A stretch of 64,000 nucleotides of DNA. Source: a virus. How positions within the stretch are numbered: position 1 is the stretch's first letter; each line of letters starts with the position of its first letter. Below the pieces are notes generated by a model, which was not told the origin of the DNA, ran no database searches, and was given only the letters and a program-made list of their open reading frames with translations. The stretch covers positions 1-64,000 of IMG/VR virus record IMGVR_UViG_3300021963_000100; one strand, written 5' to 3'. Both the position numbers and the translations under genes were made by a program. Positions 3,825 through 64,000 of this stretch are shown here, piece by piece.

Positions 3825-3841
3825 AAAAAATTGTAATAAAA

Positions 3842-3873
3842 TTTGGTGGTTAAATTTATTGTACTTATCTTTG
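3842..3873 (+). promoter_or_regulatory. Bacteroidota-type promoter
   Basis: TTTG 3842-3845, 20 bp, TATCTTTG 3866-3873; serves the ATG at 3893. Confidence 0.9.
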
Positions 3874-18254: not shown

Positions 18255-19277
18255 TTAAGGTATAATTTGTTCCCCTTTGGAGATTTTTTCCATATATTCG
18301 GATTCGGTTAAAACAGCTCTTACGTCCCAATGGTCAGCCATCATGGTTTCTTTTGCATGATCTGATCTTCTTTTGGCACCATACGCACATTTTCTAACCA
18401 GATAATCGTATGATAGGTGTTTGTAATGTAATACGTATAATTCGGTGTCAGAATTGTAAACCACGTTACCAGTTGGGTAAGATTGGTGGCTACCATATGA
18501 ATATCTCATATTAACCTCTTTTGGGTTGAATAGTACGTATTTATCTAAACCGCTACTCACCTCACCATTTTTTATAATATCTGGTAAATAAACTCCTGGT
18601 TGGAATTTTGGGAATTCAGTTGAGTACATTTCGTAACCATATGTAACTGGTATTGTAATCCCGTTTTTCTTATACTCAATAATTTTTTCTCTAATATTCG
18701 GGTGATATAAAAATTCATCAGCATCAACAATGATAAACCAGTCGTACTCGTCTTTGTATTTCTTCCAGATTTCATTTCTGGATTCCATCAAATTGTATTC
18801 ATTGTACTCTTTATGATCCTCAATGATTACCTCAACTTTACTACCAAAAGTTTTAAGGTACTCCACGGAACCGTCATCACTGTTTCCATCAGAAAAAATA
18901 ATCTTATCAACACCAACAAAATTGAAATAGTAATCGATAAAGAATGGTAAGATATCAATCTCATTTTTGATTGGACAAACCACGCATATTTTTTGTCTTG
19001 GTATTGATGTTGTTTTTTTGAAAATAGCACTCCTAAGAATCGAAGTACCCCAAGAGTCCCAAACCTCAACTTTAATATTATCAGCGTCAACTATTATATC
19101 ATTACCAAAAAAGTATTCATTACCTTTTTCCAACAATATAACATAGTCCATATAAGTTAAATGCTCGTACTCATACCCATTATACTTATGAACCTTTAAT
19201 TTTATCTCAATAGGGAATCCAGATTGTAGAAAAATCCTACCAATACTGGTGTCATACTTAATATCAACGTTAACCAT
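18255..19277 (-). CDS. GT2-type glycosyltransferase, 340 aa
   Basis: From about residue 95: CVVCPIKNEIDILPFFIDYY, then IIFSDGNSDDGS and DWFIIVDADEFLYHP. This is the nucleotide-sugar binding core of GT-A glycosyltransferases (GT2/GT92-like), including the DxD-type DAD. The N-terminal 95 residues are an extra domain. It may glycosylate virion or host surface components; the Thr/Ser-rich collagen fibres of this phage are a possible substrate (inference). A weak host-type -7 box lies upstream. Confidence 0.85.
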   Translation of the reverse strand: MVNVDIKYDTSIGRIFLQSGFPIEIKLKVHKYNGYEYEHLTYMDYVILLEKGNEYFFGNDIIVDADNIKVEVWDSWGTSILRSAIFKKTTSIPRQKICVVCPIKNEIDILPFFIDYYFNFVGVDKIIFSDGNSDDGSVEYLKTFGSKVEVIIEDHKEYNEYNLMESRNEIWKKYKDEYDWFIIVDADEFLYHPNIREKIIEYKKNGITIPVTYGYEMYSTEFPKFQPGVYLPDIIKNGEVSSGLDKYVLFNPKEVNMRYSYGSHQSYPTGNVVYNSDTELYVLHYKHLSYDYLVRKCAYGAKRRSDHAKETMMADHWDVRAVLTESEYMEKISKGEQIIP

Positions 19278-21023: not shown

Positions 21024-21033
21024 ATTAAATAAA

Positions 21034-23820: not shown

Positions 23821-23822
23821 AA

Positions 23823-27543: not shown

Positions 27544-27780
27544 ATGGAATATAGAATTAAATTTGAGGTTTATAATAGATTTAACCACCTAATAAAAGAA
27601 GAGTTAAAATCTGTGATAATTAATGAGCCAACTGTTGCCGAAATAAAAGATTTATTCCCAAAAGACCAGTATGGTAATATTGAATCTGAAATTTTTATTG
27701 GTAATGGTGGTAGACGTGATTTGGTTGATATTGATTTAGTTAATCAAGTTTGGGTTAAATATGTTATTAAATTAAACTAA
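27544..27780 (+). CDS. Hypothetical protein, 78 aa
   Basis: A small charged protein with strand-helix layout, starting 8 bp after the previous stop. Unrecognised; perhaps an assembly partner of the surface proteins. Its 3' end overlaps that of the convergent ADP-ribosyltransferase gene by 4 bp. Confidence 0.75.
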   Translation: MEYRIKFEVYNRFNHLIKEELKSVIINEPTVAEIKDLFPKDQYGNIESEIFIGNGGRRDLVDIDLVNQVWVKYVIKLN

Positions 27781-30317: not shown

Positions 30318-30333
30318 TATATTGGTGATATAG

Positions 30334-30341
30334 TATAAATA
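30334..30341 (-). promoter_or_regulatory. TATTTATA motif (candidate late promoter)
   Basis: Minus strand, ACTATTTATACTA, 16 bp before the ATG at 30317. Confidence 0.55.
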
Positions 30342-30354
30342 GTCCCATTTTAAA

Positions 30355-30383
30355 TAAAAAGGTCGGAGTAGCGAATTCCGACC
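30355..30383 (-). terminator. Terminator (minus strand)
   Basis: GGTCGGA, 9-base loop, TCCGACC, then TTTTTATTT read on the minus strand; ends the thioredoxin unit. A second hairpin CCACC/GGTGG lies at about 30421-30436 on the way. Confidence 0.75.
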
Positions 30384-30441
30384 TAGTTTGTCCACAACCA
30401 GTGAACGGTCCTAAAATACCACCTCTGAGGGTGGAATATCT

Positions 30442-41137: not shown

Positions 41138-44100
41138 TTATGCTTTAACCAATGGTATTTGCTTGTCTTTGTTACCAAGTTTATTGATATCATCAATCAA
41201 TTGCTTCATAACTTCTAGAACGTTTTCAGTATTTTGCTCCAAATCATTGTTTCTGCTAATAATTTGTGCGGATTTTTGTACTAAAGCAATTCTAGCTGCT
41301 TGGTTTATACCACTTAAATCATAATTACCAACTTTTTCTGGTAAGAATTTTTCTGGGTTACCTGGGTTGTATTGCATACCAGTTTCGGTTTTAGCGTCAT
41401 CAGCCGATTGTTTTGCCGCATCATCCATTGCATCTTCTTCAGCGCTCATAACATCCTTTAACATTCGTTTATATGCGGTTACATCCATATCAGCACGACT
41501 AATCATTGAAACCATTTTAGGTGCTGGTACTTTAGCTAATGAACCCAACACAACAGATAGGAAATCAGCTAATTTAATTCTGTTAAGTTTTTTATTGTGT
41601 TTTTTCATATAACTAACAACAATCTTACTACTCAAATCTGGTATAATTGTAGCTAACTCTTGGAAAATTAGTCCAGCTGTACCGTTCATAATAGCATCTT
41701 CCTTACTTTGCTTCATTTCTGGTTGATTATCACCAAATTCATCTAATGTTGTTATATTTTCTAAAATAACATCAATTAAATTATTATGGGTTTCCATTAA
41801 ATTGTGTAACTCAACACCCTCATAAAACTCACTACCATAGAAATTACCACCCCTTTTACTTGGTTTACCAGCATCGGCATCTTGATTGTTTTGATTATCT
41901 TGGTTGTCAGTCGGTGTGTTTTGGTTATTATTAGATGAATTTTGATTGTTAGAGTTACCTTGGTTACCATTTGATGACCCTTGGTTGTTAGAGTTACCTT
42001 GGTTACCATTTGATGATCCTTGGTTGTTGGTGTTTGTTTTATTAGTACCATCTTTCACATTAGGGTTACCTGTGTTTAAAGACATTTCGCCACTTTTAAC
42101 TTTATCTATTAAAGTTGAGAAAACAGCATACATTGATTTAAGGTAATTTGGTAAATTTTTCAAAAATTCACGTCTATCATTGTAAACTTTATTCATTTCA
42201 CCTTTACCTGGAACTCTCTCAGCTCTTTCATTTAATTTATTGATACCAATTGATTTTAATTGATCCATGATATTGTTACCATTTTTAAATTGAACTGAGT
42301 AGATAGCTTTATTAAAATCACTGATAAATATTTTTAAACTTTTTTCATCTGAAATTAATAAACTATTAATATCCATTCTAGCTATAGGATTACCTTTAGC
42401 TTGATCTAATAAATTTTGTAATTTTTTATCTTGTGTGCCAAATCTATTAAGGGTTTTAACAATATTAGATAATCTATTTACATTGGTTTTGAACAACTTT
42501 AATTGATTTTGGCTTAAACCAATATCACCAATACCCTTATCGTTGGTATTTTTTTCTGAAGCCGCTTGACCTTTAGAGCTAATCGATCTCATCAAGCTAT
42601 CATCAGCCTCAACCAAAATATCTAAACTGTTTAATAAATTAATTAACTGGATATCACCCTCCATTAATTTGTATATATCATTAACATCATTAGGTTGTGT
42701 TATTTTCTTTTCAACCTTACCACCACCGCTATATTGTTTAGTTGGGTTAGAAGAACCTCCTTTACCATAGGTATCGGAATTAACTTGAGATTTAAAATTA
42801 AAAACATCTTGGAAATATTTTTTCAAGTCTCTATAAAGTTGTTGGTCTTGACCACCACCAGTTTGTTTGTTTTTATTGTTACCTTGTTCGTCACCACCTT
42901 GTGGGTTTTTATCGTCACCTTCGCCATTACCAATAACAATTGGGTTTTCTTTGGTGCTTTCAATTGGTCTGATTGACTGTAATAAATCATTTAATAATTG
43001 TGCTCTTGATGATTTTTTACCTTTCATTCTAGCCAATTTAACAGCTAAAGCACCAAGTCCCAATGCAATACCAAGAGGGCCTAAAATTTTTGCCGCTATA
43101 CCCCATTTAGCATACGCACCAGTACTTACAGCAACTTTAGTTGTCACATATGTGGTGTAAATTGCTTTACCTAAAAATGCGGCTTGTGCGCTAATACCAA
43201 ATAAAGCTAAACCAGGTTTCATACTACCATATGTTTTAGCCGCCTTTGTGAATATCTCACTAACTTTTGATGACGAGTTTTGGGTACACAATTCATGTAG
43301 CATTTGTGCTTGTTTCTCTGGTGAAATAATATTACCAGCGACATCTCTAGCACCATTACGCAAAAACATGCCTGAAACCGCTTTTTCACCACCATGATTT
43401 TCGATAAACCAATTCACATCAGCACCAGTTGCCATCTTTCTACCACTAATTTCTTGCATCCAGTGCAACATACCTTGAGAATCTGGCTTACCACCACTAA
43501 TTAATTTTTCAATTTGTTGTGGGCTTGTAATGGTTTTTATCGTTTGAGGGTCAACCAAATTTTTAAACCAGTCTGTTTGAAACATCCAAGATAAACCCTT
43601 TAAAACACCACCACCAATAGCTAATAAAGCTGGTAGTTTATTCGAATCTAAAGTTTTCATTCTGGTGCTATCATAAGCAGCCACATCACCTTTTTTAATC
43701 GCTGATTTGGTTGACGCAAATCTATTATCGGCATCAGCTTTAGCTTGATCTAAATCATCGTAGGCTTCCATTAGTTCAGTTAATACTTGATCGGTATCTG
43801 TTTCCTCACCTTCATTAAACACACTAAATGCTGCGGTTAAATCATAATCCAAATATTTCTGAGTGTATTCTTTTAAATCATTAATAATTTCATTTGCAGC
43901 GTCAACAGGTAAAAACCCTTTTTGATCTGGGTTTAACTTAGTTGCCTTCACCAATGAATCATATACGGTTGCAATTTCAATGACGGTGTTAACGAAATCT
44001 AACTGACTTTTGTTATTTGGGAATTCTGGGTTTTTTTCTCTAATTGATTTATCCAAATCTTTAATTACTTGGTTAGCTTGTTTCTCCAATAAATCTTTAA

Positions 44101-44332
44101 TTTTATTGTTAGCAACAGCTGTGGCTTGGGTTTTACCTAATATTTTCCCGCCAGCTTTATATTTACCTAATTTGGATAATGCATATTTCGCATTTTCCCA
44201 CCAACCCTCATTAAGTGGGCTTAAATTAATTTGGTTAAGCTCAAATTCCAACAATTCAGCTTCATTTAACATGGGAAGACCCATTTGTCTTCTCATTGTG
44301 TTAACTTCATTTAAAATGTTCGCACTAGTCAT
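41138..44332 (-). CDS. Large tagged virion-type protein, 1064 aa
   Basis: The N-terminus ILNEVNTMRRQMGL is a variant of the tag motif, followed by a second LNE element (PLNEGWWENAKYALSKL). Mainly helical domains follow (about 60-400), with two hydrophobic stretches near 370-430 (GLALFGISAQAAFLGKAIYT, LGPLGIALGLGALAVKLA). Two Asn/Gln/Gly-rich linkers lie at about 470-500 and 765-830. Probably a large internal or head protein (inference). Starts 2 bp after the upstream ORF. Confidence 0.8.
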   Translation of the reverse strand: MTSANILNEVNTMRRQMGLPMLNEAELLEFELNQINLSPLNEGWWENAKYALSKLGKYKAGGKILGKTQATAVANNKIKDLLEKQANQVIKDLDKSIREKNPEFPNNKSQLDFVNTVIEIATVYDSLVKATKLNPDQKGFLPVDAANEIINDLKEYTQKYLDYDLTAAFSVFNEGEETDTDQVLTELMEAYDDLDQAKADADNRFASTKSAIKKGDVAAYDSTRMKTLDSNKLPALLAIGGGVLKGLSWMFQTDWFKNLVDPQTIKTITSPQQIEKLISGGKPDSQGMLHWMQEISGRKMATGADVNWFIENHGGEKAVSGMFLRNGARDVAGNIISPEKQAQMLHELCTQNSSSKVSEIFTKAAKTYGSMKPGLALFGISAQAAFLGKAIYTTYVTTKVAVSTGAYAKWGIAAKILGPLGIALGLGALAVKLARMKGKKSSRAQLLNDLLQSIRPIESTKENPIVIGNGEGDDKNPQGGDEQGNNKNKQTGGGQDQQLYRDLKKYFQDVFNFKSQVNSDTYGKGGSSNPTKQYSGGGKVEKKITQPNDVNDIYKLMEGDIQLINLLNSLDILVEADDSLMRSISSKGQAASEKNTNDKGIGDIGLSQNQLKLFKTNVNRLSNIVKTLNRFGTQDKKLQNLLDQAKGNPIARMDINSLLISDEKSLKIFISDFNKAIYSVQFKNGNNIMDQLKSIGINKLNERAERVPGKGEMNKVYNDRREFLKNLPNYLKSMYAVFSTLIDKVKSGEMSLNTGNPNVKDGTNKTNTNNQGSSNGNQGNSNNQGSSNGNQGNSNNQNSSNNNQNTPTDNQDNQNNQDADAGKPSKRGGNFYGSEFYEGVELHNLMETHNNLIDVILENITTLDEFGDNQPEMKQSKEDAIMNGTAGLIFQELATIIPDLSSKIVVSYMKKHNKKLNRIKLADFLSVVLGSLAKVPAPKMVSMISRADMDVTAYKRMLKDVMSAEEDAMDDAAKQSADDAKTETGMQYNPGNPEKFLPEKVGNYDLSGINQAARIALVQKSAQIISRNNDLEQNTENVLEVMKQLIDDINKLGNKDKQIPLVKA
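41949..42030 (-). repeat. 39-bp tandem repeat in coding sequence
   Basis: Encodes a 13-residue unit NQGSSNGNQGNSN repeated about twice with almost identical DNA, inside the Asn-rich linker of the 1064-aa protein. Confidence 0.75.
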
Positions 44333-46736: not shown

Positions 46737-49202
46737 ATGAAAGAAAAAATGTCAAATGAGTTGAGACAGGCCTTTACAATTGGTCGTGAGTCTGCTGTCC
46801 GTTATCACGATAGTAAATTAAGATTAGAACATGTACTATATGGTATAATGACATCAAAGAACATAATCCATGAAATTTTAAAAGAGAAGGTATCGGATTA
46901 TGATTTATTAATAAATGATGTTGAAAACTACATCAAGCGCCAATCGGATAATGATTCAGAGGTTAACTCTGAAAGTATATTAAAATTTGAAATGTCTTTG
47001 CAAGATGTGTTAAAATCATGTGCAAAAAGTAAAAGGGTTGATGAGTACATTAGCGCTGAATTATTTTTTACCGTTTCTTTTGACTTAAATATTGCTATTA
47101 TTAAGATAATAAAAGATTACGGTATTTCTAAAACTTTTATTAAACAAAAATTAAAGCAATTAAATGTATCGGCTATGTATTTCTCTGATGAAGATAATAA
47201 CAAAAAAAACTTTCAAAACGAAAACCAAACAAATAAAACAAAAAGCAAAACACCAATCTTAGACAATTTTGGTAGGGATTTAACGGCATTGGCTAATGAT
47301 GATAAATTAGATCCTATTATTGGTAGAGATAGTGAGGTTGAGCGTGTGGCTCAAATATTAACAAGACGTAAGAAAAACAACCCAGTTTTAATCGGTGATC
47401 CTGGTGTTGGTAAAACAGCAATCGCTGAAGGTCTAGCAATTAAAATCGCAAAAAATGAATGCCCTAGACCTTTACAAGGTAAGCGATTGGTTACATTAGA
47501 TTTAACATCAATGGTGGCTGGAACTAAATACCGTGGTCAATTTGAGGAAAGAATTAAAGGTTTATTAGATGAGGTTAGGGATAACCCAAATATTATTTTA
47601 TTTGTTGACGAATTACATACGTTAGTTGGTGCTGGTAACTCTTCTGGTTCATTAGATGCCGCAAACGTATTTAAACCAGCTTTGGCACGTGGTGAAGTTC
47701 AATGTATTGGTGCTACAACTTTAGATGAATATCGTGAGCATATTGAAAAAGACGGTGCTTTAGATAGGAGATTTCAAAAAGTAATAGTTAACCCACCTAC
47801 ATTGGAACAAACAAAAGAAATCTTAATGAATATACGTGAAAAGTATCAAGATTTCCATAAAGTGGAATATACTGATGATGCTATTGATGAGATCATTAGA
47901 TTATCTGATAGGTACATCACAAATCGTGAATTCCCAGATAAAGCCATTGATATTTTGGATGAGGCTGGTTCTAGAACTCAAGTTAGCATAAAGCCACCGC
48001 AAAAAATTAAGGAGCTTGAGGATTCAATAAAAGAAATTAAAAAGCAAAAAAGTGAGGTTGTTAAGAGTCAAAATTATGAAAAAGCAGCCGATTTGCGTGA
48101 TTTAGAGAAAAAAACAACCACTGAATTAGAAAAAGAAACTAAAATTTGGAAGGACACCATTAACACAAAAAGAATGGTTGTTACAGATGAAATGATTTGC
48201 GAAGTTGTTTCAATGATGACTGGTATCCCTATTAGTAAAATATCACAAAACGAGATTAAAAAATTAATTAATATTGATAAAGAAATCTCAAATACAGTAA
48301 TTGGTCAGGATGAGGCTATACAGAAGGTGGCTTCAGCTATTAAGAGAAATAGAACGGGTATCCGTAGACAAAATAGACCAATTGGTTCATTCTTGTTTAT
48401 TGGGCCTACAGGTGTGGGTAAAACCGAATTAGCTAAAGTATTAGCTGAAAAGATTTTTGGTAGTGAGGATGCTATGATTCGAATTGATATGTCGGAATAT
48501 GGTGAAAAATTCAACACATCTAAATTGATTGGTTCACCTCCAGGTTATATTGGTTATAATGAAGGTGGGCAATTAACTGAAAAGGTTAAGAATAAACCAT
48601 ACTCATTAGTGTTATTTGATGAAATTGAAAAGGCTCACCCAGATGTGTTTAACGTTTTATTACAATTATTGGATGAGGGTCATTTAACGGATGGATCTGG
48701 TAGAAAAATTAATTTTAAAAACACCATAATAATTATGACATCAAATATTGGTTTAAAAGATGTGCAGGATTTTGGTGTAAAAATTGGGTTCTCAACTGAC
48801 GAAGATTCATTAAAATCCTCACAAGATATTATAGAAAAAAGTCTAAAAAAAGCATTCAAACCAGAATTTTTAAATCGCTTGGATGAGATTGTATATTTTA
48901 ACTATTTGGGTCAAGGGGAAATTTTAAAAATCATTGACTTACAATTGAATGAGTTATCAGATAGATTAAAAGAATCTAATTATTCTTTCAAAATCTCAAA
49001 AACAGCAAAGGAAAAATTAGCTGAACTTGGTTTTAATAAAAATTATGGTGCTAGAGAATTACAAAGAACAATTCAAAAGTATATCGAGGATCCAATGTCA
49101 GATGAGTTGCTTAAAAGTGGTATGCCTAAAGAATGTCAATTTAATATTAGTTACGATAGCAAAAAGAATAAAATCGTTTTAGATATACAGCAAAAACAAT
49201 AA
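46737..49202 (+). CDS. clpC: ClpC-like AAA+ unfoldase, 821 aa
   Basis: Full-length class I Clp ATPase. A divergent Clp N-domain (about 1-150; RLEHVLYGIM) is followed by AAA1 with Walker A GDPGVGKT (about 221) and FVDELHTLVGAG, a UVR-like middle segment (QNYEKAADLRDLEKK, about 445), and AAA2 with GPTGVGKT (about 557) and VLFDEIEKAHPDVF. An IGF tripeptide in VKIGFSTD sits where ClpP-docking loops lie, so it may use host ClpP. Host-type promoter. It could redirect host proteolysis or act in assembly (inference). Confidence 0.93.
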   Translation: MKEKMSNELRQAFTIGRESAVRYHDSKLRLEHVLYGIMTSKNIIHEILKEKVSDYDLLINDVENYIKRQSDNDSEVNSESILKFEMSLQDVLKSCAKSKRVDEYISAELFFTVSFDLNIAIIKIIKDYGISKTFIKQKLKQLNVSAMYFSDEDNNKKNFQNENQTNKTKSKTPILDNFGRDLTALANDDKLDPIIGRDSEVERVAQILTRRKKNNPVLIGDPGVGKTAIAEGLAIKIAKNECPRPLQGKRLVTLDLTSMVAGTKYRGQFEERIKGLLDEVRDNPNIILFVDELHTLVGAGNSSGSLDAANVFKPALARGEVQCIGATTLDEYREHIEKDGALDRRFQKVIVNPPTLEQTKEILMNIREKYQDFHKVEYTDDAIDEIIRLSDRYITNREFPDKAIDILDEAGSRTQVSIKPPQKIKELEDSIKEIKKQKSEVVKSQNYEKAADLRDLEKKTTTELEKETKIWKDTINTKRMVVTDEMICEVVSMMTGIPISKISQNEIKKLINIDKEISNTVIGQDEAIQKVASAIKRNRTGIRRQNRPIGSFLFIGPTGVGKTELAKVLAEKIFGSEDAMIRIDMSEYGEKFNTSKLIGSPPGYIGYNEGGQLTEKVKNKPYSLVLFDEIEKAHPDVFNVLLQLLDEGHLTDGSGRKINFKNTIIIMTSNIGLKDVQDFGVKIGFSTDEDSLKSSQDIIEKSLKKAFKPEFLNRLDEIVYFNYLGQGEILKIIDLQLNELSDRLKESNYSFKISKTAKEKLAELGFNKNYGARELQRTIQKYIEDPMSDELLKSGMPKECQFNISYDSKKNKIVLDIQQKQ

Positions 49203-49273: not shown

Positions 49274-52200
49274 ATGGCTGTAATATATTTAAGGCATGTA
49301 CTGCAACGTCCGCTTACGTTTGGTGAGTTAGACGCAAACTTTGAAAATCTAAATAATGCAATACAAAATTTAGGTCTAGACGATCTAACTGATGTTGTAA
49401 TTTCTACTGGTGTAACCACTGGAGACTTTTTGGTCTTTGATGGTACCAATTGGGTTAATAAACACTTATCTCCAGCGGTAACGCCAGAGTATATTGTAAC
49501 GTATGACCCAGCTACTGGTGATTTTACATACACACAAATAAATCCAGGTGCAACAATTTCATCCACACCCCCAACAGGTTTAACTGCTGGGGCTTTGTGG
49601 TTTAATGATGCTGATGGTATATTATATATTCTATACGATGGTGTAAACTGGATACCCGCAACTTCGGTATTAAACGGAACATCAGGTACATCGGGTATCG
49701 CTGGCACATCAGGTATAGATGGTACTTCTGGTACATCGGGTGAGTCTGGTACGTCTGGAACAGCTGGTGAAAGCGGAACTTCTGGTTCTTCAGGTGAGTC
49801 TGGAACTTCTGGTTCTTCAGGTGAAAACGGTACATCGGGAACTAGCGGAACCTCAGCGAGTGGGGCTAATTATTATGGGTCATTTAGTGATTCAACAACA
49901 CAAGTGGTTTCTGGTGCTAACACACCAACAGTTGTTACATATGATACAACTGAAATATCTAATGAAATTAATGTAGTAGCTGGTTCACAAATAACATTTG
50001 TTAATACTGGTGTATATGAGGTAGGGTATTCAGCTCAAATTGAAAAAACTCAAGGTGGTGCTCAAGCTGATGTTGACATATGGCTTAGAAAAAATGGTAC
50101 TGACATTATTAGAACTGATTCCATATTAGGTTTAGTTTCAAATTCAGTTAAAAATTTACCATTCGTTTCAATTATTTCAGAATTTAATGCGGGTGATTAT
50201 ATTGAGATCTTATTTGCTTCTAGTTCTAATCATGTGCAATTAACAGCAGTACCAGCACAAGCAACACCGTACCCACACCCAGCAGCACCATCAATTATTG
50301 TTGTTGCTAAGCAAATTGGTATGATGTTGCAAGGTGATTCTGGATACTCAGGCACTAATGGTACTTCTGGAACTGCGGGTACATCTGGTACTTCTGGAAC
50401 TGCGGGTACATCGGGTGAATCTGGAACATACGGAACAAGTGGTGAAGATGGTACCTCAGGAACATCGGGTACAAGTGGTGAGTCTGGAACATCAGGTACA
50501 TCTGGTGAAGATGGAACTACAGGAACAAGTGGAACTTCGGGAGAATCTGGAACATCAGGTACATCTGGTGAAGATGGAACTACAGGAACAAGTGGAACTT
50601 CAGGTGAATCTGGTAGTACAGGAACAGCTGGAACTTCAGGTGAAGACGGTTCTACGGGAACGTCTGGAACATCTGGTGAAAGTGGAACTTCTGGTACTTA
50701 TGGGACATCTGGTGAAGATGGAACCACAGGAACAAGTGGTACTTCAGGTGAGTCTGGAACAAGTGGAACATACGGAACAAGCGGTGAGGATGGAACATCA
50801 GGCACATCAGGAACAAGTGGGACTTCTGGCTTAAATGGTATAAATGGTATTGACGGTACTTCTGGTATCTCTGGAACATCGGGTTCAAGTGGATCTAATG
50901 GTACTGCGGGCACATCTGGGGAAGATGGAACGACAGGTACCTCAGGAACATCAGGGGAATCGGGAACAACGGGTACAGCTGGAACAAGTGGTGAAGACGG
51001 TACAACAGGTACGGCTGGTACAAGTGGTGAGTCTGGAACAAGTGGGACATCTGGAACATCGGGTGAGGATGGGACAACTGGTACATCTGGAACTTCAGGT
51101 GAGTCTGGAACAAGTGGAACATACGGAACAAGCGGTGAAGATGGTACTTCAGGAACTTCTGGAACCTCAGGGGAATCTGGAACTTCAGGAACATACGGAA
51201 CAAGCGGTGAAGATGGTACAACTGGAACAAGTGGAACAAGTGGTGAGTCTGGTACGTCAGGAACGTCTGGAACAAGTGGTGAAGATGGTACGACTGGAAC
51301 AAGTGGAACAAGTGGTGAATCTGGAACAACGGGTACTAATGGTACATCAGGTGAAGATGGTACAACTGGAACAAGTGGAACAAGTGGTGAGTCTGGAACT
51401 TCTGGTACCTATGGAACTTCAGGGGAGGATGGTACAACGGGAACAAGTGGAACTTCGGGAGAATCTGGAACTTCAGGTACAAATGGTATTAGTGGTGTAA
51501 ATGGTGTTTCTGGAACTTCAGGAGAATCTGGAACAAGTGGTACAGCAGGGACAAATGGTACTTCAGGTGAGGATGGAACAAGTGGTACATCAGGAACATC
51601 AGGTGAATCTGGAACTTCAGGAACATACGGAACAAGTGGTGAAGATGGTACAACTGGAACAAGTGGAACTTCAGGTGAATCTGGTAGTACAGGAACAAGT
51701 GGAACATCTGGTGAAGATGGTACAACGGGAACATCAGGAACTTCTGGTGAGTCAGGAACTTCAGGAACATACGGAACAAGCGGTGAAGATGGTACAACTG
51801 GTACATCGGGTACATCTGGTGAAAGTGGAACAACTGGAACATCGGGTACATCTGGTGAAAGTGGAACTAGTGGTACTTACGGTACTTCGGGAGAAGACGG
51901 AACTACGGGTACATCTGGAACTTCAGGTGAATCTGGGTCTACTGGAACATCTGGAACTTCTGGTGAAGATGGTACAACTGGTACGTCAGGAACTTCAGGT
52001 GAATCTGGGTCTACTGGAACAGCTGGAACTTCAGGAGAGGATGGGACAAGTGGAACTTCTGGTACATCAGGGACAAGTGGGTTAAATGGTATAAATGGTA
52101 TTGACGGTACTTCTGGTATCTCTGGAACATCGGGTTCAAGTGGATCTAATGGAACATCTGGAACTTCAGGTGAGGACGGAACAAGTGGTACATCTGGTAC

Positions 52201-55200
52201 TAGTGGAGAATCTGGGACTTCAGGAACATACGGAACAAGTGGTGAAGACGGAACAAGTGGTACATCTGGTACTAGTGGTGAAAGTGGAACAAGTGGAACT
52301 TATGGTACTTCAGGTGAAGACGGAACTACGGGTACATCTGGAACATCAGGTGAAAGTGGAACTTCTGGTACTTATGGGACATCTGGTGAAGATGGTACAA
52401 CAGGAACATCTGGTACTAGTGGTGAAAGTGGAACTACAGGTACGTCTGGAACATCTGGTGAAAGTGGAACTTCTGGTACTTATGGGACATCTGGTGAAGA
52501 CGGAACCACGGGTACATCGGGTACAAGTGGTGAGTCTGGCACATCAGGAACATACGGAACAAGTGGTGAAGACGGAACAACTGGAACAAGTGGAACAAGT
52601 GGTGAGTCTGGAACTTCAGGTACTTATGGTACTTCTGGTGAAGACGGTACAACTGGTACGTCAGGTACTTCGGGAGAATCTGGGACTTCAGGTACAAATG
52701 GTATTAGTGGTGTAAATGGTGTTTCTGGAACTTCAGGTGAGTCTGGAACGAGTGGATCAAATGGAACAGCTGGAACTTCAGGTGAAGACGGTTCTACGGG
52801 AACGTCTGGAACAAGTGGTGAGTCTGGTACATCGGGAACATACGGAACTTCAGGTGAAGATGGTACAACTGGTACGTCAGGAACATCAGGTGAATCTGGA
52901 ACTAGTGGTACTTATGGAACATCTGGGGAAGATGGTACGACTGGAACAAGTGGGACTTCAGGTGAGTCAGGAACTTCGGGAACATACGGAACTTCAGGTG
53001 AAGACGGTACAACTGGTACGTCAGGAACTTCAGGTGAATCTGGGACTTCAGGAACAGCTGGAACATCGGGAGAAGATGGTACAACTGGTACATCGGGTAC
53101 TAGTGGAGAATCTGGGACTTCAGGAACATACGGAACAAGTGGTGAAGATGGTACAACTGGTACGTCTGGAACCTCAGGAGAATCTGGAACTTCTGGTACT
53201 TATGGAACATCTGGTGAAGACGGAACCACGGGAACATCGGGTACAAGTGGTGAATCTGGTTCTACTGGAACAGCTGGAACTTCAGGTGAAGATGGAACAT
53301 CGGGTACTTCAGGAACAAGTGGAACAAGTGGATTAAATGGTATAAATGGTATTGATGGTACTTCTGGTATCTCTGGTACTTCTGGTTCAAGTGGGTCAAA
53401 CGGAACCGCTGGAACAAGTGGGGAAGATGGTACATCTGGAACATCAGGTACGTCTGGTGAAAGTGGTACAACTGGAACAAGTGGAACTTCAGGTGAAGAT
53501 GGTACAACAGGAACATCTGGAACTTCGGGAGAATCTGGTTCTACTGGAACATCTGGAACTTCTGGTGAAGATGGAACCACAGGAACAAGTGGTACATCTG
53601 GTGAAAGTGGTACTACTGGAACAGCTGGGACTTCAGGTGAAGATGGTACGACTGGAACAAGTGGAACTTCAGGTGAAAGTGGAACAAGTGGAACTTATGG
53701 TACTTCAGGTGAAGATGGAACCACGGGTACATCGGGTACCTCAGGTGAGTCTGGTACTTCAGGAACATACGGAACAAGTGGTGAGGATGGTACAACTGGA
53801 ACAAGTGGAACAAGTGGCGAGTCTGGTACAACTGGAACAAGTGGAACAAGTGGCGAGTCTGGTAGTACAGGAACAGCTGGAACTTCAGGAGAAGATGGAA
53901 CCACGGGTACATCGGGTACTAGTGGCGAATCTGGAACTTCTGGTACCTATGGAACATCAGGTGAGGATGGTACAACTGGAACAAGTGGTACTTCGGGAGA
54001 ATCTGGCACATCAGGAACATACGGAACAAGTGGTGAAGACGGTACAACAGGTACGTCTGGAACATCTGGTGAATCTGGTACGAGTGGTACAAATGGTATT
54101 AGTGGTGTAAATGGTGTTTCTGGTACTTCGGGAGAATCTGGAACAAGTGGATCAAATGGAACATCGGGTACTAGTGGTGAGTCTGGTAGTACAGGAACAG
54201 CTGGAACTTCAGGTGAAAGTGGTACAACAGGTACGGCTGGTACAAGTGGTGAGTCTGGAACAAGTGGTACCTATGGAACATCAGGTGAGGACGGTACAAC
54301 TGGAACAAGTGGGACTTCAGGTGAGTCAGGAACTTCGGGAACATACGGAACTTCAGGTGAAGACGGTACAACTGGAACAAGTGGAACAAGTGGCGAATCT
54401 GGAACCACAGGTACATCTGGTACTAGTGGTGAGTCTGGAACAAGTGGTACTTATGGTACTTCAGGAGAAGATGGTACAACTGGTACATCGGGTACTAGTG
54501 GTGAGTCTGGTAGTACAGGAACAGCTGGAACTTCAGGTGAAAGTGGTACAACTGGAACAAATGGTACTTCGGGAGAATCTGGAACAAGTGGTACTTCAGG
54601 AACATCAGGTGAATCTGGTACTTCAGGAACATACGGAACATCAGGTGAGGATGGAACCACAGGAACAAGTGGAACAAGTGGTGAGTCTGGCACTTCAGGA
54701 ACATACGGAACATCAGGAGAAGATGGAACCACAGGAACAAGTGGAACTTCGGGAGAATCTGGAACTAGTGGTACTTATGGTACTTCAGGAGAAGATGGTA
54801 CAACTGGTACATCTGGAACATCTGGTGAATCAGGAACCACAGGAACAAGTGGAACTAGTGGCGAGTCTGGAACATCTGGAACATACGGAACTTCAGGTGA
54901 AGATGGTACAACTGGTACGTCAGGAACTTCGGGTGAGTCTGGAACAAGTGGAACATACGGAACAAGCGGTGAGGATGGTACAACTGGTACGTCTGGAACC
55001 TCAGGTGAGTCTGGAACAAGTGGTACTTATGGTACTTCTGGTGAGTCAGGAACTACGGGTACATCGGGAACAAGTGGTGAAAGCGGAACTTCTGGTTCTG
55101 CTGGAACATCTGGTGAGGATGGTACTTCTGGTACTTCTGGAACTAGTGGTACTAGTGGTACTTATGGTACTTCAGGTGAAGACGGTACTTCTGGAACATC

Positions 55201-58200
55201 AGGTACATCTGGTGAAAGTGGAACTTCTGGTACTTACGGTACTTCGGGAGAAGACGGAACCACGGGTACATCTGGAACATCAGGTGAATCTGGAACTTCA
55301 GGAACATACGGAACAAGCGGTGAAGATGGAACGTCTGGAACGTCTGGAACGTCTGGAACAAGTGGTGAGTCTGGTACTTCAGGAACAAGTGGGACAAACG
55401 GAACTTCAGGCTCTGCTGGTACATCTGGAACAAATGGTACTTCTGGAACAAGTGGTACATCGGGGTCAAACGGAACTTCAGGCTCTGCTGGTACATCTGG
55501 AACAAATGGTACTTCTGGTTCTGCTGGAACATCTGGAACAAACGGAACTTCTGGTTCTGCTGGAACAAGTGGAACAAATGGTACTTCTGGTATCTCAAGT
55601 ACATCGGGATCTAACGGAACATCGGGTTCTGCGGGAACTTCTGGTACGTCTGGTACATCTGGTTTATCAAGAACGTCTGGTACATCTGGTACATCGGGTA
55701 CTTCTGGTACTTCTGGTGTTGATGGTGCGGATGGTATTTCTGGTATTTCTGGTACGGGTGGTACGTCAGGTACAACTGGTGCTAACGGAACTTCAGGTTC
55801 TGCTGGGACATCAGGAACATCAGGTACAAATGGAACTAGCGGTGTAAGCTCGACCTCTGGAACTTCTGGTTCTGCTGGAACTAGTGGGTCAGCTGGTACA
55901 AATGGTACAAATGGTACTTCTGGTATAAGCTCAACTTCAGGTACATCTGGTTCTGCTGGTACTTCAGGAACAAATGGAACAAGTGGTTTATCGAATACAT
56001 CAGGATCTAGTGGTACAGCGGGAACATCGGGTGTTTCAAGTACGTCTGGAACTTCTGGTTCTGCGGGAACATCGGGTAGTGCGGGAACAAGTGGTGAAAG
56101 CTCAACTTCAGGTACATCAGGTTCTGCGGGAACTTCTGGAACAAATGGAACAAGTGGGGCGTCATCAACTTCAGGTTCTGCGGGAACTTCTGGTTCTGCG
56201 GGTACTTCAGGTACAGCTGGAACAAGTGGGATATCTAATACATCTGGTACATCTGGTTCTGCTGGTACTTCAGGTACAGCTGGAACAAGTGGTTTATCTA
56301 ATACATCAGGTTCAAATGGTACATCAGGTTCAGCTGGGACATCTGGAACAAATGGAACAAGTGGGGTATCTACAACTAGCGGTTCTGCGGGGACATCAGG
56401 TTCCGCTGGAACATCAGGAACTGCTGGAACAAGTGGTTTATCGAATACATCAGGAACAAGTGGTTCTGCGGGAACTTCTGGTACTAATGGTACATCTGGT
56501 TTATCATCAACATCAGGAACAAGTGGTACTTCAGGTACGTCAGGAACAAGTGGTAATTCAGGAACATCGGGTTCGAGTGGATCTAATGGTACTGCGGGAA
56601 CTTCAGGTATTTCATCGACTTCAGGAACATCTGGTTCCGCTGGAACAAGTGGAACAAATGGTACTTCAGGTATAAGCTCAACTTCAGGTACATCTGGTTC
56701 TGCGGGAACATCGGGTACATCTGGTACTAACGGTACTTCTGGTATTTCATCAACTTCAGGAACATCAGGAACAGCAGGTACATCGGGAATAAGTGCGACT
56801 TCAGGTACATCTGGTTCTGCTGGTACTTCAGGAACAAATGGAACAAGTGGTATTTCGTCAACCTCTGGTACGTCAGGATCTGCGGGAACGTCAGGAACAA
56901 ATGGTACATCTGGTATTTCTTCAACAAGTGGATCTAATGGCACATCTGGTTCTGCTGGTACTTCGGGAACTGCGGGAACAAGTGGAATATCTAATACATC
57001 TGGAACAAGTGGTACAGCGGGAACATCGGGTACAAATGGAACTAGCGGGATATCTAACACATCGGGAACTAGCGGGTCAGCTGGAACATCTGGTACAAAT
57101 GGAACAAGTGGTGTTTCTAACACATCAGGTACATCTGGCACATCGGGAACAAGTGGTAATTCAGGAACATCAGGTTCAAGTGGATCTAATGGTACTGCGG
57201 GAACATCGGGTATTTCATTAACTTCGGGTTCTGCGGGAACTTCTGGTTCTGCGGGAACATCTGGAACAAATGGAACATCTGGTATATCTTCAACATCAGG
57301 AACTAGTGGTTCTGCGGGAACATCGGGTACGTCTGGTACTAACGGTACTTCAGGTATTTCATCGACTTCAGGAACATCAGGTTCTGCTGGTACGTCTGGT
57401 ACTACAGGTACAGCGGGTACTTCGGGAATTTCTTCAACATCAGGGACATCTGGTTCTGCGGGAACGTCAGGTACAAATGGAACATCTGGTATATCTTCAA
57501 CATCAGGAACTAGTGGGTCAGCTGGAACGTCAGGAACATCTGGAACAAGTGGTAATTCAGGAACGTCAGGCTCTAATGGTACATCAGGTTCTGCTGGTAC
57601 GTCTGGTACATCGGGAACAAGTGGATCAGCTGGTACATCGGGAACAAATGGTACGTCTGGTGTTTCGTCAACTTCAGGTACATCTGGTTCTGTTGGAACT
57701 TCAGGTACAAACGGAACAAGTGGTGCATCATCAACTTCTGGATCATCAGGTACTTCAGGTACTTCTGGTACTTCAGGTATAAACGGTATTAGTGGTATAA
57801 ACGGAACAAATGGTACTTCGGGTACATCTGGTACAAGTGGTAATTCGGGAACATCGGGTTCGAGTGGATCTAATGGTACCGCTGGAACTTCGGGATTGAG
57901 TTCGACTTCAGGAACATCTGGTTCTGCTGGTACATCAGGTACTACAGGTACAGCGGGTACTTCGGGAATTTCTTCAACATCAGGAACAAGTGGATCAGCT
58001 GGTACATCTGGTACTCATGGAACTTCTGGTACTTCCTCAACTTCAGGTTCTGCTGGCACATCGGGTACTGCTGGAACAAGTGGAATATCTTCAACATCAG
58101 GAACTAGTGGTTCTGCGGGAACTGCTGGTACATCTGGTACTGCTGGAACAAGTGGATTAAGTTCGACTTCAGGTACATCTGGTTCTGCTGGAACTTCTGG

Positions 58201-60832
58201 AACAAACGGAACAAGTGGTACATCATCAACTTCTGGAACATCTGGAACAAGTGGTACATCTGGAACAAGTGGTATAAATGGTATCAGTGGTATAAACGGA
58301 ACAAATGGTACTTCAGGTACGTCAGGAACAAGTGGTAATTCGGGAACTTCAGGTTCTGCTGGTACTAACGGAACTGCGGGTACGTCTGGTTTATCATCAA
58401 CTTCAGGTACATCTGGTTCTGCGGGAACAAGTGGTACAGCTGGAACTTCTGGAACAAATGGTACATCAGGAATATCTTCAACTTCGGGAACATCGGGTTC
58501 TGCGGGAACATCGGGAACGCATGGAACTTCAGGTTCATCATCAACTTCAGGTTCTGCTGGTACTTCTGGTACCGCTGGAACTTCAGGTATAAGCTCAACT
58601 TCAGGAACATCAGGTTCTGCTGGTACGTCAGGTACAGCTGGAACTTCAGGTTCATCATCAACATCTGGTTCTGCGGGAACTTCAGGTACTGCGGGAACAT
58701 CTGGAGCATCTTCAACTTCTGGATCATCTGGAACAAGCGGTACTTCGGGAACATCAGGTATAAATGGTATTAGTGGTATAAATGGAACAAATGGTACTTC
58801 GGGTACATCTGGTACAAGTGGTGCAACTGGAACATCTGGTTCTTCGGGAACAAATGGTACTGCGGGAACCTCAGGGTTGAGTTCAACTTCAGGAACATCA
58901 GGTTCTGCTGGTACATCTGGTACTACAGGTACTGCGGGAACCTCAGGGTTGAGTTCGACTTCAGGAACATCAGGTTCTGCTGGTACATCTGGTACTCATG
59001 GAACTTCTGGCGCTTCTTCAACTTCAGGTACATCTGGTTCTGCGGGAACAAGTGGTACTGCGGGAACATCTGGTATCTCAGGTACATCTGGATCAGCGGG
59101 AACTTCTGGTTCTGCGGGAACATCTGGTATCTCAGGTACTGCTGGAACATCAGGTACATCAGGTTCTGCTGGAACTAACGGAACTGCTGGTACGTCTGGT
59201 ATCTCATTGACTTCAGGTACATCTGGAACAAGTGGTACTTCAGGTACTTCTGGTACTTCAGGTATAAACGGTATCAGTGGTATAAACGGAACAAATGGTA
59301 CTTCGGGTACATCTGGTACAAGTGGTGCAACTGGAACATCTGGTTCTTCGGGAACAAATGGTACTGCGGGAACTAGTGGTATATCATCAACTTCAGGAAC
59401 AAGTGGATCATCTGGCACTTCAGGTACTACAGGTACTGCGGGTACGTCTGGTATATCTTCAACTTCTGGAACTTCAGGTTCTGCTGGTACATCTGGTACT
59501 CATGGAACTTCTGGTACTTCTTCAACTTCAGGAACAAGTGGATCAGCTGGGACTTCTGGTACTCATGGAACTTCTGGTACTTCTTCAACTTCAGGAACAA
59601 GTGGATCAGCTGGGACTTCTGGTATCTCAGGTACTGCTGGAACATCAGGTACATCAGGTTCTGCTGGTACTAACGGAACAAATGGTACATCAGGAATATC
59701 TTCAACTTCGGGAACAAGTGGAACAAGTGGAACATCTGGTACAAGTGGTATAAACGGTATTAGTGGTATAAACGGAACAAATGGAACTAGTGGAACATCA
59801 GGAACAAGTGGTGCGACAGGTACATCTGGTTCATCTGGTACTAATGGTACTGCTGGTACTTCTGGTACCGCTGGAACTTCAGGTATAAGCTCAACTTCAG
59901 GTACATCTGGTTCTGCTGGTACATCGGGTACTACAGGTACAGCGGGTACTTCTGGTATATCTTCAACTTCGGGAACATCTGGTTCTGCGGGAACAAGTGG
60001 AACACATGGTACATCTGGCACTTCTTCAACATCAGGAACATCTGGCACTTCAGGTACTTCTGGTACTTCAGGTATAAACGGTATTAGTGGTATAAACGGA
60101 ACAAATGGTACTTCAGGTACGTCAGGAACAAGTGGTGCGACTGGTACTTCTGGAACATCTGGTAGAAATGGTACCTCAGGTACAACTGGTACTGCGGGTA
60201 CATCTGGTAACACTGGATCAAACGGTGTTGGTGGTGGTTCTGGTTCTTCGGGTACATCTGGTACTGCTGGTACGTCTGGAATATCTGGTAATGTTGGTAC
60301 ATCTGGTACGTATGTTAACGTTACCACAACAGCACCAATTCAAGGTGGTGGTTCTTTAGGTGGTGATATAAACATTAGTTTGGATATTAATGGTACAACT
60401 CAAAATGGTTTGGTTGTTTGGGATAACGCAAATAATGAGTTAGACGTATTAACTGATTTCCTATACAATTCTACACTTAAAGGTTTACATTTAGGTTTAG
60501 ATGCTGTGATGTTATCTGGTAATGATCAAAGTGTATCAAATGGTAATTTTGTTGTACAAGCATGGCCAACACCACCTGTTAGAGGTATGTTTGTTGATTA
60601 TACTGTATTTAACCAAAACACAAACGGTTTTAGAGCTGGTACGTTTAGATCTGTCAATGATCAAACTCCTGGTGGTGTTGTTTGGGATGATACATCAACT
60701 ACCGATTTGAATGGTGCAACAGGTGGATTTAGATTTATGACTAATGTTGTGGGTGGTAACTTCCAATTAATAGCGGTTGCCGATAATGACAGATACGACA
60801 TTTCATATTCAATAAAATTAATCCTAAAATAA
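49274..60832 (+). CDS. Giant collagen-like tail fibre protein, 3852 aa
   Basis: The N-terminal 135 residues form a fibre-attachment-type domain ([37 protein letters not shown]). A short Gly-X-Y block (about 136-195) is followed by a C1q/TNF-like domain (about 197-350; [40 protein letters not shown]). About 3,320 residues of Gly-X-Y triplets follow, without proline, and then a C-terminal domain of about 174 residues that probably trimerises or binds a receptor. If it is a collagen triple helix, the rod would be near 0.95 micrometre at 0.29 nm per residue. Late motif upstream; no terminator is seen. Confidence 0.9.
50341..55380 (+). repeat. Collagen array type A (72-bp/24-aa unit)
   Basis: Dominant 24-residue unit of eight triplets: [24 protein letters not shown]. 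Each unit carries one or two acidic triplets and often one GTY. A marker segment LNGINGIDG recurs with its TTA codon at 50831, 52082 and 53333, exactly 1,251 bp apart each time. Peptides are near-identical but codons vary. Confidence 0.85.
55381..60309 (+). repeat. Collagen array type B (Gly-interrupted, about 20-22-aa units)
   Basis: Acidic triplets disappear. The units are of the type [20 protein letters not shown], in which one Gly per unit is replaced by Ser or Asn (SSTSG, SNTSG). A marker [12 protein letters not shown] recurs at 57779, 58274, 58760, 59264, 59750 and 60074, mostly 486-504 bp apart. Confidence 0.82.
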
Positions 60833-60903: not shown

Positions 60904-63900
60904 ATGGCAAACGAACATATTTTACGACATGGGCTAACAGTATCGGGTGATACTGTTGTCGTTGGAACATTTAAAATTGATGGTGTGGCAAGCACCACAG
61001 GTAAAGGTAAATTTTTGGTCGTAGATGATAGTGGTAATGTCTCTTATCAACTTGGTACAACTTCAGGTTCAGCTGGTTCATCTGGAACTTCTGGTTCTGT
61101 TGGAACTTCTGGTACTAGTGGTGAATCGGGAACAGCTGGAACTTCTGGAACAAATTCAACTTCTGGAACAAGTGGTAGGTCTAATACATCTGGTACGTCA
61201 GGTACTGCTGGTACTAGTGGGGAATCGGGAACTAATGGTACTGCTGGTACAACTGGTACTGCTGGTACGTCAGGTAAAGATGGTGTATCTGGTACATCAG
61301 GTACATCGGGTACTTCTGGTACTTCTGGTAGATCGGGTGAGTCTGGTTCTGCTGGTACGTCTGGTTCTGCTGGTACGTCAGGTACTAATGGGACATCTGG
61401 TTTATCATCAACCTCTGGTTCTGCTGGTACTTCTGGTACCGCTGGTACGTCAGGTAAAGATGGTGTATCAGGTACATCAGGTACATCAGGTTCTGCGGGA
61501 ACTTCTGGAACAAACGGAACTTCTGGTTTATCTTCGACTTCAGGAACATCAGGATCTGCGGGAACAAGTGGAACAAATGGTACTAGTGGTATAGCTGGTA
61601 CTTCTGGTTCTAACGGAACAAGTGGTTCTGCTGGAACATCTGGAACAAACGGAACATCAGGAATATCATCAACTAGTGGATCAAATGGAACTTCTGGTTC
61701 GGCTGGTACTTCTGGAACGAATGGAACTTCTGGTACTTCTTCAACTTCTGGTTCAAACGGAACAAGTGGTTCGGCTGGTACTTCTGGAACAAGTGGTGTT
61801 GCTGGAACCTCTGGTTTATCTAATACATCAGGAACTAGTGGGTCAAATGGTACTTCGGGAACAAATGGTACATCAGGAATATCATCAACTAGTGGATCAA
61901 ATGGAACTTCTGGTTCTGCTGGTACTTCTGGTACCGCTGGAACTTCAGGTATAAGCTCAACTTCAGGAACATCAGGTTCTGCGGGAACTTCTGGAACAAA
62001 TGGTACATCAGGAGTATCTTCAACATCAGGTTCTGCGGGAACTTCTGGTTCATCTGGAACAAATGGTACATCTGGTTTATCATCAACTTCGGGTACATCA
62101 GGATCTGCGGGAACATCTGGAACAAATGGTACTTCGGGTAATTCATCAACTTCTGGTTCTGCGGGAACAAGTGGAACAAATGGTACTTCGGGTATTTCAA
62201 GTACATCAGGGTCTAATGGTACTTCTGGTTCTGCGGGAACAAGTGGAACAAATGGTACTAGTGGTATAGCTGGTACTTCAGGTACATCGGGTTCAAATGG
62301 AACATCAGGTTCTGCGGGAACGTCTGGAACAAATGGAACAAGTGGGGTATCTTCAACATCAGGTTCAAATGGTACATCTGGTTCTGCTGGTACTTCTGGA
62401 ACAAATGGAACTAGCGGTGTAAGCTCGACCTCTGGAACATCTGGTTCTGCTGGTACTTCTGGAACAAATGGAACATCAGGTGTATCCTCAACTTCAGGTA
62501 CATCAGGATCTGCGGGAACGTCAGGTACTCATGGAACATCAGGATTAAGTTCAACTTCGGGTACATCAGGATCTGCGGGAACGTCAGGTACTCATGGTAC
62601 TTCAGGAATAAGTTCAACTTCAGGATCTAATGGTACATCAGGTTCTGCGGGAACTTCTGGAACAAATGGAACAAGTGGGGTATCTAACACATCTGGAACT
62701 TCTGGTTCTGCTGGTACTTCAGGTACAGCGGGTACATCTGGTATATCTTCAACATCGGGATCAAATGGAACTTCAGGTTCTGCTGGTACTTCTGGTACAA
62801 ATGGTACTAGTGGTATAGCTGGTACTTCAGGTTTATCTAATACATCAGGAACTTCGGGATCAGCGGGAACAAGTGGAACAAATGGTACTTCAGGTTTATC
62901 TAATACATCAGGAACATCAGGTTCTGCTGGAACAAGTGGAACAAATGGTACTTCAGGAATAAGTTCAACAAGTGGATCAGCTGGAACATCGGGTTCTGCG
63001 GGAACTTCAGGAACAAACGGTACTTCTGGTGTTGCTGGAACTAGCGGGATATCTAATACATCTGGAACTTCGGGATCAGCGGGAACAAGTGGAACAAATG
63101 GTACTTCAGGTTTATCTAATACATCAGGAACATCAGGTTCTGCTGGAACAAGTGGTACGCATGGAACTTCAGGATTAAGTTCGACTTCAGGATCTAATGG
63201 AACATCGGGTAGTGCTGGTACTTCAGGTACAAACGGAACAAGTGGTATAGCTGGTACTTCAGGTTTGTCTAATACATCAGGAACATCAGGATCTGCGGGA
63301 ACATCTGGAACAAATGGTACATCAGGAATAAGTTCAACTTCAGGTTCAAATGGAACATCAGGTTCTGCTGGAACAAGTGGAACAAATGGAACTTCAGGAA
63401 TCTCATCAACTTCTGGTTCAAATGGAACTAGTGGATCAGCGGGTACTTCAGGAACAAACGGAACTTCAGGTGTAGCTGGAACAAGTGGAGTATCAAATAC
63501 ATCAGGAACATCTGGTTCTGCTGGTACTTCTGGTTCAAATGGAACTTCTGGTGTTGCTGGAACAAGTGGAGTATCAAATACATCAGGAACATCTGGTTCT
63601 GCTGGTACTTCTGGTACCGCTGGAACATCAGGATTAAGTTCAACTTCAGGTACATCTGGTTCAAATGGTACAAGTGGCTCTGCGGGAACAAGTGGAACAA
63701 ATGGTACTAGTGGTGTTTCTTCAACAAGTGGTTCAAACGGAACATCAGGTTCTGCTGGAACTTCAGGAACAAATGGAACTTCTGGTATAGCGGGAACTTC
63801 TGGTTTATCTAATACATCAGGAACAAGTGGTTCGGCTGGTACTTCTGGAACGAATGGAACTTCTGGTATTGCTGGAACAAGTGGTAATTCAAGTACATCG

Positions 63901-64000
63901 GGAACATCTGGATCAGCGGGAACTTCGGGAACACACGGAACAAGTGGTATTTCATCAACAAGTGGATCTAATGGTACTTCTGGTTCAGCGGGAACAAGTG
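60904..64000 (+). CDS. Second collagen-like fibre protein, 3' end beyond window
   Basis: The start MANEHILRHGLTVSGDTVVV and the following 50 residues (FKIDGVASTTGKGKFLVVDD) are a fibre-base-type domain. From about residue 52 the protein is Gly-X-Y repeats of type B only ([20 protein letters not shown]), open to the end of the window (more than 1,030 codons). It probably forms a second fibre or extends the first. It follows 49274-60832 by 71 bp with its own late motif. Confidence 0.88.
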   Translation, partial: MANEHILRHGLTVSGDTVVVGTFKIDGVASTTGKGKFLVVDDSGNVSYQLGTTSGSAGSSGTSGSVGTSGTSGESGTAGTSGTNSTSGTSGRSNTSGTSGTAGTSGESGTNGTAGTTGTAGTSGKDGVSGTSGTSGTSGTSGRSGESGSAGTSGSAGTSGTNGTSGLSSTSGSAGTSGTAGTSGKDGVSGTSGTSGSAGTSGTNGTSGLSSTSGTSGSAGTSGTNGTSGIAGTSGSNGTSGSAGTSGTNGTSGISSTSGSNGTSGSAGTSGTNGTSGTSSTSGSNGTSGSAGTSGTSGVAGTSGLSNTSGTSGSNGTSGTNGTSGISSTSGSNGTSGSAGTSGTAGTSGISSTSGTSGSAGTSGTNGTSGVSSTSGSAGTSGSSGTNGTSGLSSTSGTSGSAGTSGTNGTSGNSSTSGSAGTSGTNGTSGISSTSGSNGTSGSAGTSGTNGTSGIAGTSGTSGSNGTSGSAGTSGTNGTSGVSSTSGSNGTSGSAGTSGTNGTSGVSSTSGTSGSAGTSGTNGTSGVSSTSGTSGSAGTSGTHGTSGLSSTSGTSGSAGTSGTHGTSGISSTSGSNGTSGSAGTSGTNGTSGVSNTSGTSGSAGTSGTAGTSGISSTSGSNGTSGSAGTSGTNGTSGIAGTSGLSNTSGTSGSAGTSGTNGTSGLSNTSGTSGSAGTSGTNGTSGISSTSGSAGTSGSAGTSGTNGTSGVAGTSGISNTSGTSGSAGTSGTNGTSGLSNTSGTSGSAGTSGTHGTSGLSSTSGSNGTSGSAGTSGTNGTSGIAGTSGLSNTSGTSGSAGTSGTNGTSGISSTSGSNGTSGSAGTSGTNGTSGISSTSGSNGTSGSAGTSGTNGTSGVAGTSGVSNTSGTSGSAGTSGSNGTSGVAGTSGVSNTSGTSGSAGTSGTAGTSGLSSTSGTSGSNGTSGSAGTSGTNGTSGVSSTSGSNGTSGSAGTSGTNGTSGIAGTSGLSNTSGTSGSAGTSGTNGTSGIAGTSGNSSTSGTSGSAGTSGTHGTSGISSTSGSNGTSGSAGTS
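61060..64000 (+). repeat. Collagen array type B in the second fibre gene
   Basis: GlyXY triplets with regular SSTSG or SNTSG interruptions, continuing off the window. Similar to 55381-60309 at both peptide and partly DNA level. Confidence 0.82.

Follow-up and report, generated by a model that had tools for sequence, protein, structure and literature searches.

The 64,000-nucleotide stretch of viral DNA analysed here (the window; positions 1 to 64,000 of IMG/VR record IMGVR_UViG_3300021963_000100) encodes fibre A, a collagen-like protein of 3,852 amino acids (aa), in which glycine (Gly) opens most triplets of two long collagen segments that contain no proline (Pro). The gene next after it, overlooked in the first-pass annotation of this DNA, encodes fibre B, a second Pro-free giant. 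Both proteins are, on the strength of their sequences, very probably collagen-like trimeric fibres. Considered together with the gene neighbourhood in related records, they are probably homotrimeric tail or tail-side fibres of a jumbo myophage of the T4 superfamily, with a triple helix that would be stabilised by O-glycosylation through phage enzymes. Because Pro is absent and serine (Ser) fills the Y position of the Gly-X-Y (GXY) triplets, O-glycosylation is the most likely stabiliser of such a helix, which suggests that sugars instead of Pro hold these very long fibres together. Collagen has been held to need Pro or hydroxyproline (Hyp), with a worm collagen carrying glycosylated threonine (Thr) as the exception. 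If the proposal is correct, the widespread Pro-free phage family, with its link to a well-understood protein glycosyltransferase, would show a second way of stabilising a triple helix, and one open to genetic study; many phage glycosyltransferases would gain a virion target and new sugar-stabilised biomaterials might become possible. A search of the open-access literature, with subscription journals and preprints outside its scope, retrieved no report of such fibres.

Architecture and composition of the fibres

The two genes are organised as follows.

49274..60832, + strand: fibre A, collagen-like tail fibre of 3,852 aa; single open reading frame (ORF) with ATG start; PF01391
49274..49675, + strand: N-terminal domain (aa 1-134), presumed attachment end, kept in six related virus records
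49676..49855, + strand: short collagen segment (aa 135-194) of 20 GXY triplets, from triplet count and profile match
49856..50332, + strand: C1q/TNF-like jelly-roll insert (aa 195-353), a trimer-forming fold, from tblastn and Foldseek with modest model confidence
50333..55597, + strand: proximal collagen (aa 354-2108), 585 unbroken GXY triplets, acidic (E/D), with K, R and P absent in X and Y
55598..60313, + strand: distal collagen (aa 2109-3680), 524 triplets, nearly uncharged, with 53 in-phase Gly replacements
60314..60829, + strand: C-terminal non-collagen domain (aa 3681-3852), without a recognised relative
60904..64000, continuing to record position 71682, + strand: fibre B, giant Pro-free collagen fibre of 3,592 aa, with a Peptidase_S74 chaperone as its last domain
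60904..61065, + strand: aa 1-54 of fibre B, its N-terminal domain

The first-pass annotation, made from the DNA letters and the translated ORFs, had described a fibre with Gly at every third position and without Pro. The latter claim was confirmed, as none of the 2,268 non-Gly residues of aa 354-3680 is Pro, with about 71 expected from the Pro use in the other proteins of the window; the imino acids customary, but not strictly defining, for positions X and Y of collagen are accordingly missing. The Gly periodicity holds without a break for the proximal segment only. In all, Gly heads 1,056 of the 1,109 triplets of aa 354-3680, and in 53 of the 524 distal triplets the leading Gly is exchanged (STS 41, NTS 7, others 5), typically every 7-8 triplets. 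Position X is mainly occupied by Thr (773/1109) and position Y by Ser (733/1109, with Thr in just 78/1109); the residues previously listed for X and Y were right in giving prominence to Thr and Ser and omitted Ile (62 in X). Equally, the collagen does not extend throughout the protein, since aa 1-134, 195-353 and 3681-3852 are not collagen. The proposed rod near 1 micrometre agrees with the arithmetic (1,129 triplets x 3 x 0.286 nm = 969 nm), but a continuous stiff rod does not follow from it because the distal half is interrupted.

That the protein is a collagen-type fibre has been corroborated from several sides. PF01391 (Pfam Collagen) matches over the cut-off along both fibres, the PHROGs matches are tail fibres, driven largely by the GXY part, and fibre B contributes an S74 domain. 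Domains of the C1q/TNF and S74 types form trimers. The insert of fibre A resembles phage proteins, some of them annotated as C1q-like (tblastn), and its AlphaFold2 model, built from five sequences with modest pLDDT, retrieves the C1q/TNF family (Foldseek E 3e-5), to which almost all top matches including BclA and C1QL belong; a sequence-profile search of the PDB with the same domain gave nothing significant. Relatives of the C-terminal domain of fibre A and of the N-terminal domain of fibre B were not found in viral contigs.

The replacements of Gly keep the triplet phase throughout. The ratio of in-phase to off-phase interruptions amounts to 53:0 in fibre A, 131:1 in fibre B and 153:1, 112:2 and 68:0 in the fibres of the related records G002, G005 and G001, and, with the exception of G001, the interruptions mostly come after a triplet whose X residue is I, L or V. 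An origin as fresh point mutations was rejected, as 33 of the 41 codons at the Ser sites are TCA, more than one step away from a Gly codon. These regular replacements may serve as hinges, nodes or enzyme recognition sites.

The N-terminus of fibre A matches six close virus records (loci L015 and L016 being two places in one record). A complete fibre is present in two of these relatives, G005 (4,627 aa) and G002 (5,316 aa); in G001, G003 and G004 the fibre is cut off by contig ends. In G005, one gene combines an A-like start with a B-like S74 end (66% identity). In fibres A, G001, G002 and G005 alike, the proximal part is acidic and has few interruptions, while the distal part is interrupted and carries almost no charge, and the window and G002 have a ClpA/B-type gene upstream of the fibre in common:

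46737..49202, + strand: ClpA/B-type AAA+ ATPase, directly upstream of fibre A; context only

The 298.8-kb record G002 is considered a T4-superfamily jumbo myophage because a Gp23 capsid, a T4-type portal, tail sheath and baseplate wedge genes are present. An open frame of 4,779 aa runs antisense to its fibre gene (L056 4413-18752, +), probably as a by-product of codon choice in the GTS repeats. In a 320-kb relative, no fibre is found between the Clp gene and a pair of GT4 and TibC-type glycosyltransferase genes (L160 7438-14117), and a small collagen frame of 535 aa is located at another place in that record. More widely, (GTS)4 tracts are common in viral contigs, with at least 120 matches (loci L256-L335); among the matches listed, 60 of the 65 collagens with at least 30 triplets contain at most 3% Pro. 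As hints to the host, the same set of genes is present on two short contigs binned in Flavobacteriales and Winogradskyella genomes, binning being weak evidence, and a related pair is present in the record of Microcystis phage Mel-JY01.

Glycosyltransferase genes linked to the collagens

The fibre genes of G002 and G005 are immediately followed by a gene for a GT4-type enzyme and then by a 233-aa ORF, which is partial in G005, where the record ends and GT4 alone is visible. The third gene after the fibre of G002 encodes a protein of 713 aa, in which a GT4-like part is joined to a TIGR04414 domain scoring 304.9 bits against a curated cut-off of 200, which places it in the BAHT family, that is, a family of protein Ser transferases. 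A search of the PDB matched the protein to the structure of TibC (4RAP, E 7e-59). In the alignment the catalytic base D110 as well as K230, R286, W305 and four iron-finger Cys are identical and T226 is conservatively exchanged to Ser; thus eight of nine tested active-site and iron-finger positions, as described for TibC (PMC4358343), are identical, and all nine are invariant in 80 phage proteins. TibC itself attaches heptose to TibA and AIDA-I, two adhesins of the autotransporter type (PMC4358343). A TibC-type gene is also among those after the fibre in the L159 cluster, and six further loci share the order collagen, GT4, GT4/TibC, with the tail sheath as the next module in five.

The tightness of this linkage could be estimated from the 30 of 80 TibC loci with more than 5 kb upstream. 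In 28 of the 30, a collagen rich in Ser and Thr with 0-3 Pro and with Ser as the commonest Y residue is present (in three of the 28 downstream on the opposite strand); these counts are not independent, because some loci are near-duplicates. In the converse direction, 12 of 35 records picked solely by the (GTS)4 DNA pattern hold TIGR04414 over the cut-off, compared with none of 20 control phage records. The assumption that every TibC-type gene adjoins a collagen was rejected, as about 60 loci with GT4 and TibC have no collagen within 10 kb. A search of the whole record in 16 such cases, however, found a collagen elsewhere in 14. Six of these collagens were sampled, and five are Pro-free (three of them alike) and one contains Pro. 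Among the controls, 14 of the 20 were scanned for collagen, some others already being known to hold Pro-containing collagens, and one was over the cut-off, with a Pro-rich collagen. The difference between 14/16 and 1/14 gives a Fisher p of 2e-5, in which kinship is ignored.

With respect to the window itself, the first-pass annotation had counted at least one and probably two glycosyltransferases and suggested glycosylation as the stabiliser. One of the two enzymes is a glycosyltransferase:

18255..19277, - strand: GT2-type glycosyltransferase, 30 kb from fibre A

The ORF at 32327-33301, taken as the second, has neither a family nor a PDB match. Support for the idea of glycosylation stems from the GT4/TibC-type genes after the fibre in the relatives G002, G005 and L159, which are the better candidates, and not from the distant GT2 gene of the window. 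No TibC-type gene was found in the 71.7-kb record, which has a length of 71,718 bases and stops 36 bases past fibre B, and exact matching revealed no other contig that overlaps its end. Because of this early end, a copy of TibC and GT4 belonging to the phage of the window would lie outside the visible sequence.

Regarding the sugar, a synthesis of ADP-heptose by the phages themselves is unsupported, since the rfaE domain-II exceeded the cut-off once in 15 records and gmhA in none. As heptose genes are seldom found in these records, the donor sugar is probably made by the host. FkbM-like methyltransferase genes occur beside or fused to GT4/TibC in L234 4750-8430, L167, L174 and L191 (partly read by eye), which provides a hint of a methylated sugar.

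Proposed stabilisation of the fibres and its alternatives

In the proposed mechanism, the C1q/TNF-like domain of fibre A and the S74 chaperone of fibre B would bring three chains into register, upon which the chains would wind into a triple helix. O-glycosylation, chiefly at Ser in position Y and perhaps at other Ser and Thr residues, would stand in for Pro and Hyp and would be the work of two phage enzymes active inside the infected cell, a GT4 enzyme and a TibC-type protein Ser O-heptosyltransferase. Ser in the Y position faces the solvent in a triple helix, and the distribution of Thr in X and Ser in Y suits a Ser-directed enzyme. From gene linkage and conserved active-site residues, glycosylation of the fibres by GT4/TibC-type enzymes seems likely; that the modification is a heptose on Y-position Ser in particular is a possibility with slightly less in its favour than against it. 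With even more reserve it might be proposed that in many aquatic phages Pro has been replaced by Y-position Ser O-heptosylated by a TibC-type enzyme of the phage, giving rise to micrometre-scale sugar-stabilised fibres with the Gly replacements (G-[ILV]-S-[SNA]-T-S-G) as nodes or hinges.

Parts of this arrangement have precedents. BclA of the Bacillus anthracis exosporium possesses a glycosylated GXY stalk with GPT triplets and a C-terminal C1q domain; fibre A shares with it the C1q/TNF-like trimer domain, as judged by the fold match, but has no Pro in its long collagen segments and has this domain N-terminal to the main collagen. In the vent worm Riftia, glycosylated Thr takes the stabilising Y position. 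The analogy to vent-worm collagen drawn in the first-pass annotation consequently holds for a sugar replacing Hyp as stabiliser and fails for the residue, as fibre A carries Ser in Y and Thr in X; the glycosylated Thr of Riftia cuticle collagen is documented in work cited in PMC11766948. The collagen-like fibres EPclA and EPclB of E. coli prophages, as other phage PF01391 fibres, equally display the GXY motif, a modular composition and trimer-forming ends, but the E. coli prophage fibres have a Pro-rich X position and charged residues, whereas the fibres described here are Pro-free, rich in Ser and Thr and several times longer; EPclA and EPclB were found not to be glycosylated (PMC3368898). 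Compared with the Ser O-heptosyltransferases TibC and AAH (PMC4358343), the linked phage enzyme, while retaining the family score and, apart from Ser at T226, the tested positions, is often fused to or located beside GT4 and has a collagen-like fibre instead of a beta-solenoid as its presumed substrate. Among isolated phages, Microcystis phage Mel-JY01 (PP395634) has a (GTS)-rich collagen ORF near a GT4-FkbM-TibC fusion, although this collagen is shorter (185 triplets) with 12 Pro and its TibC part is 44% identical to that of G002. The collagen ORF of Mel-JY01 is on the + strand (L234, PP395634.1, 2-3049), and an overlapping gene is annotated on the - strand at 739-2298. Glycosylation of virions as such is known from mycobacteriophages, according to work cited in PMC12619734.

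That the fibre genes are an assembly artefact or a functionless neutral repeat expansion is hardly credible, even if the protein is highly repetitive and the record has been assembled from environmental sequence. The 21 kb of collagen-coding DNA contain no exact repeat of at least 100 bp, which makes an assembly collapse unlikely; a 24-aa unit occurs 21 times without amino-acid change, and the DNA identity of its copies is 0.782, compared with 0.771 for random codon choice from the gene, so that the amino-acid repeat is under selection with silent sites saturated, and the related records share the architecture. The same selection, along with the strict GXY phase across 585 triplets, also argues against a chain that is not triple-helical, be it a hydrophilic tether that stays flexible and is perhaps glycosylated, or a bundle of polyglycine-II helices of the kind seen in other Gly-X-X proteins. 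This arrangement would fit the lack of Pro, the regular Gly replacements and the frequent Thr in X and Ser or Asn in Y, which are poor triple-helix residues according to host-guest peptide work. An AlphaFold2 prediction of aa 3500-3852 also gave the distal segment no fold, being however uninformative as it was made from a single sequence (pLDDT 31). In a tether, on the other hand, interruptions that keep the phase as strictly as in fibres A, B and G002 would be needless, and trimer-forming C1q/TNF and S74 domains are present; a non-helical chain is thus improbable.

A collagen-like trimer might alternatively remain unglycosylated. Its length, the cold of its environment and the trimer domains at its ends would then provide the stability, and the glycosyltransferases would modify a different target, either polysaccharide on the host surface or some other protein of the virion, for instance the sheath. 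Several observations weigh against a sugar-stabilised fibre, and some of them point in exactly this direction. The collagen-less loci represent about 60 of the 76 loci found by way of GT4 and often adjoin sheath or FkbM genes, while 23 of the 35 (GTS)4 records, many of them short fragments, lack TibC over the cut-off. Moreover, glycosyltransferases of T4-like marine phages, the pelagimyophages, have been assigned by the authors to a change of the host O-chain (PMC7029224). Furthermore, the known substrates of TibC are beta-solenoid autotransporters and not collagens, heptose genes are not generally phage-borne, the syntenic spot in L160 is without fibre, neither TibC nor the neighbouring GT4 gene is visible in the record of this phage, and a triple helix does not usually have Gly replacements such as the 53 of fibre A and the 131 of fibre B. 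An unglycosylated trimer is nevertheless rather unlikely, considering that TIGR04414 is a family of enzymes that transfer to Ser in proteins, that 28 of 30 informative loci link it to a collagen and that 14 of 16 apparent exceptions hold a collagen elsewhere in the record.

Further features of the window

Many proteins of the window that have nothing else in common carry at one end a short motif resembling LNEQINRMRxIM, which is also present in the relatives; it is possibly a virion- or capsid-targeting signal.

16893-17750, 19573-20619, 20995-21552, 27777-28514 and 41138-44332: LNEQINRMRxIM-like motif at the N-terminal end
29772-30395 and 33495-35282: LNEQINRMRxIM-like motif at the C-terminal end

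A GAF-PAS histidine kinase, a YceI-like protein and a response-regulator-like ORF are located together at 21515-24263, a combination unusual in a phage.

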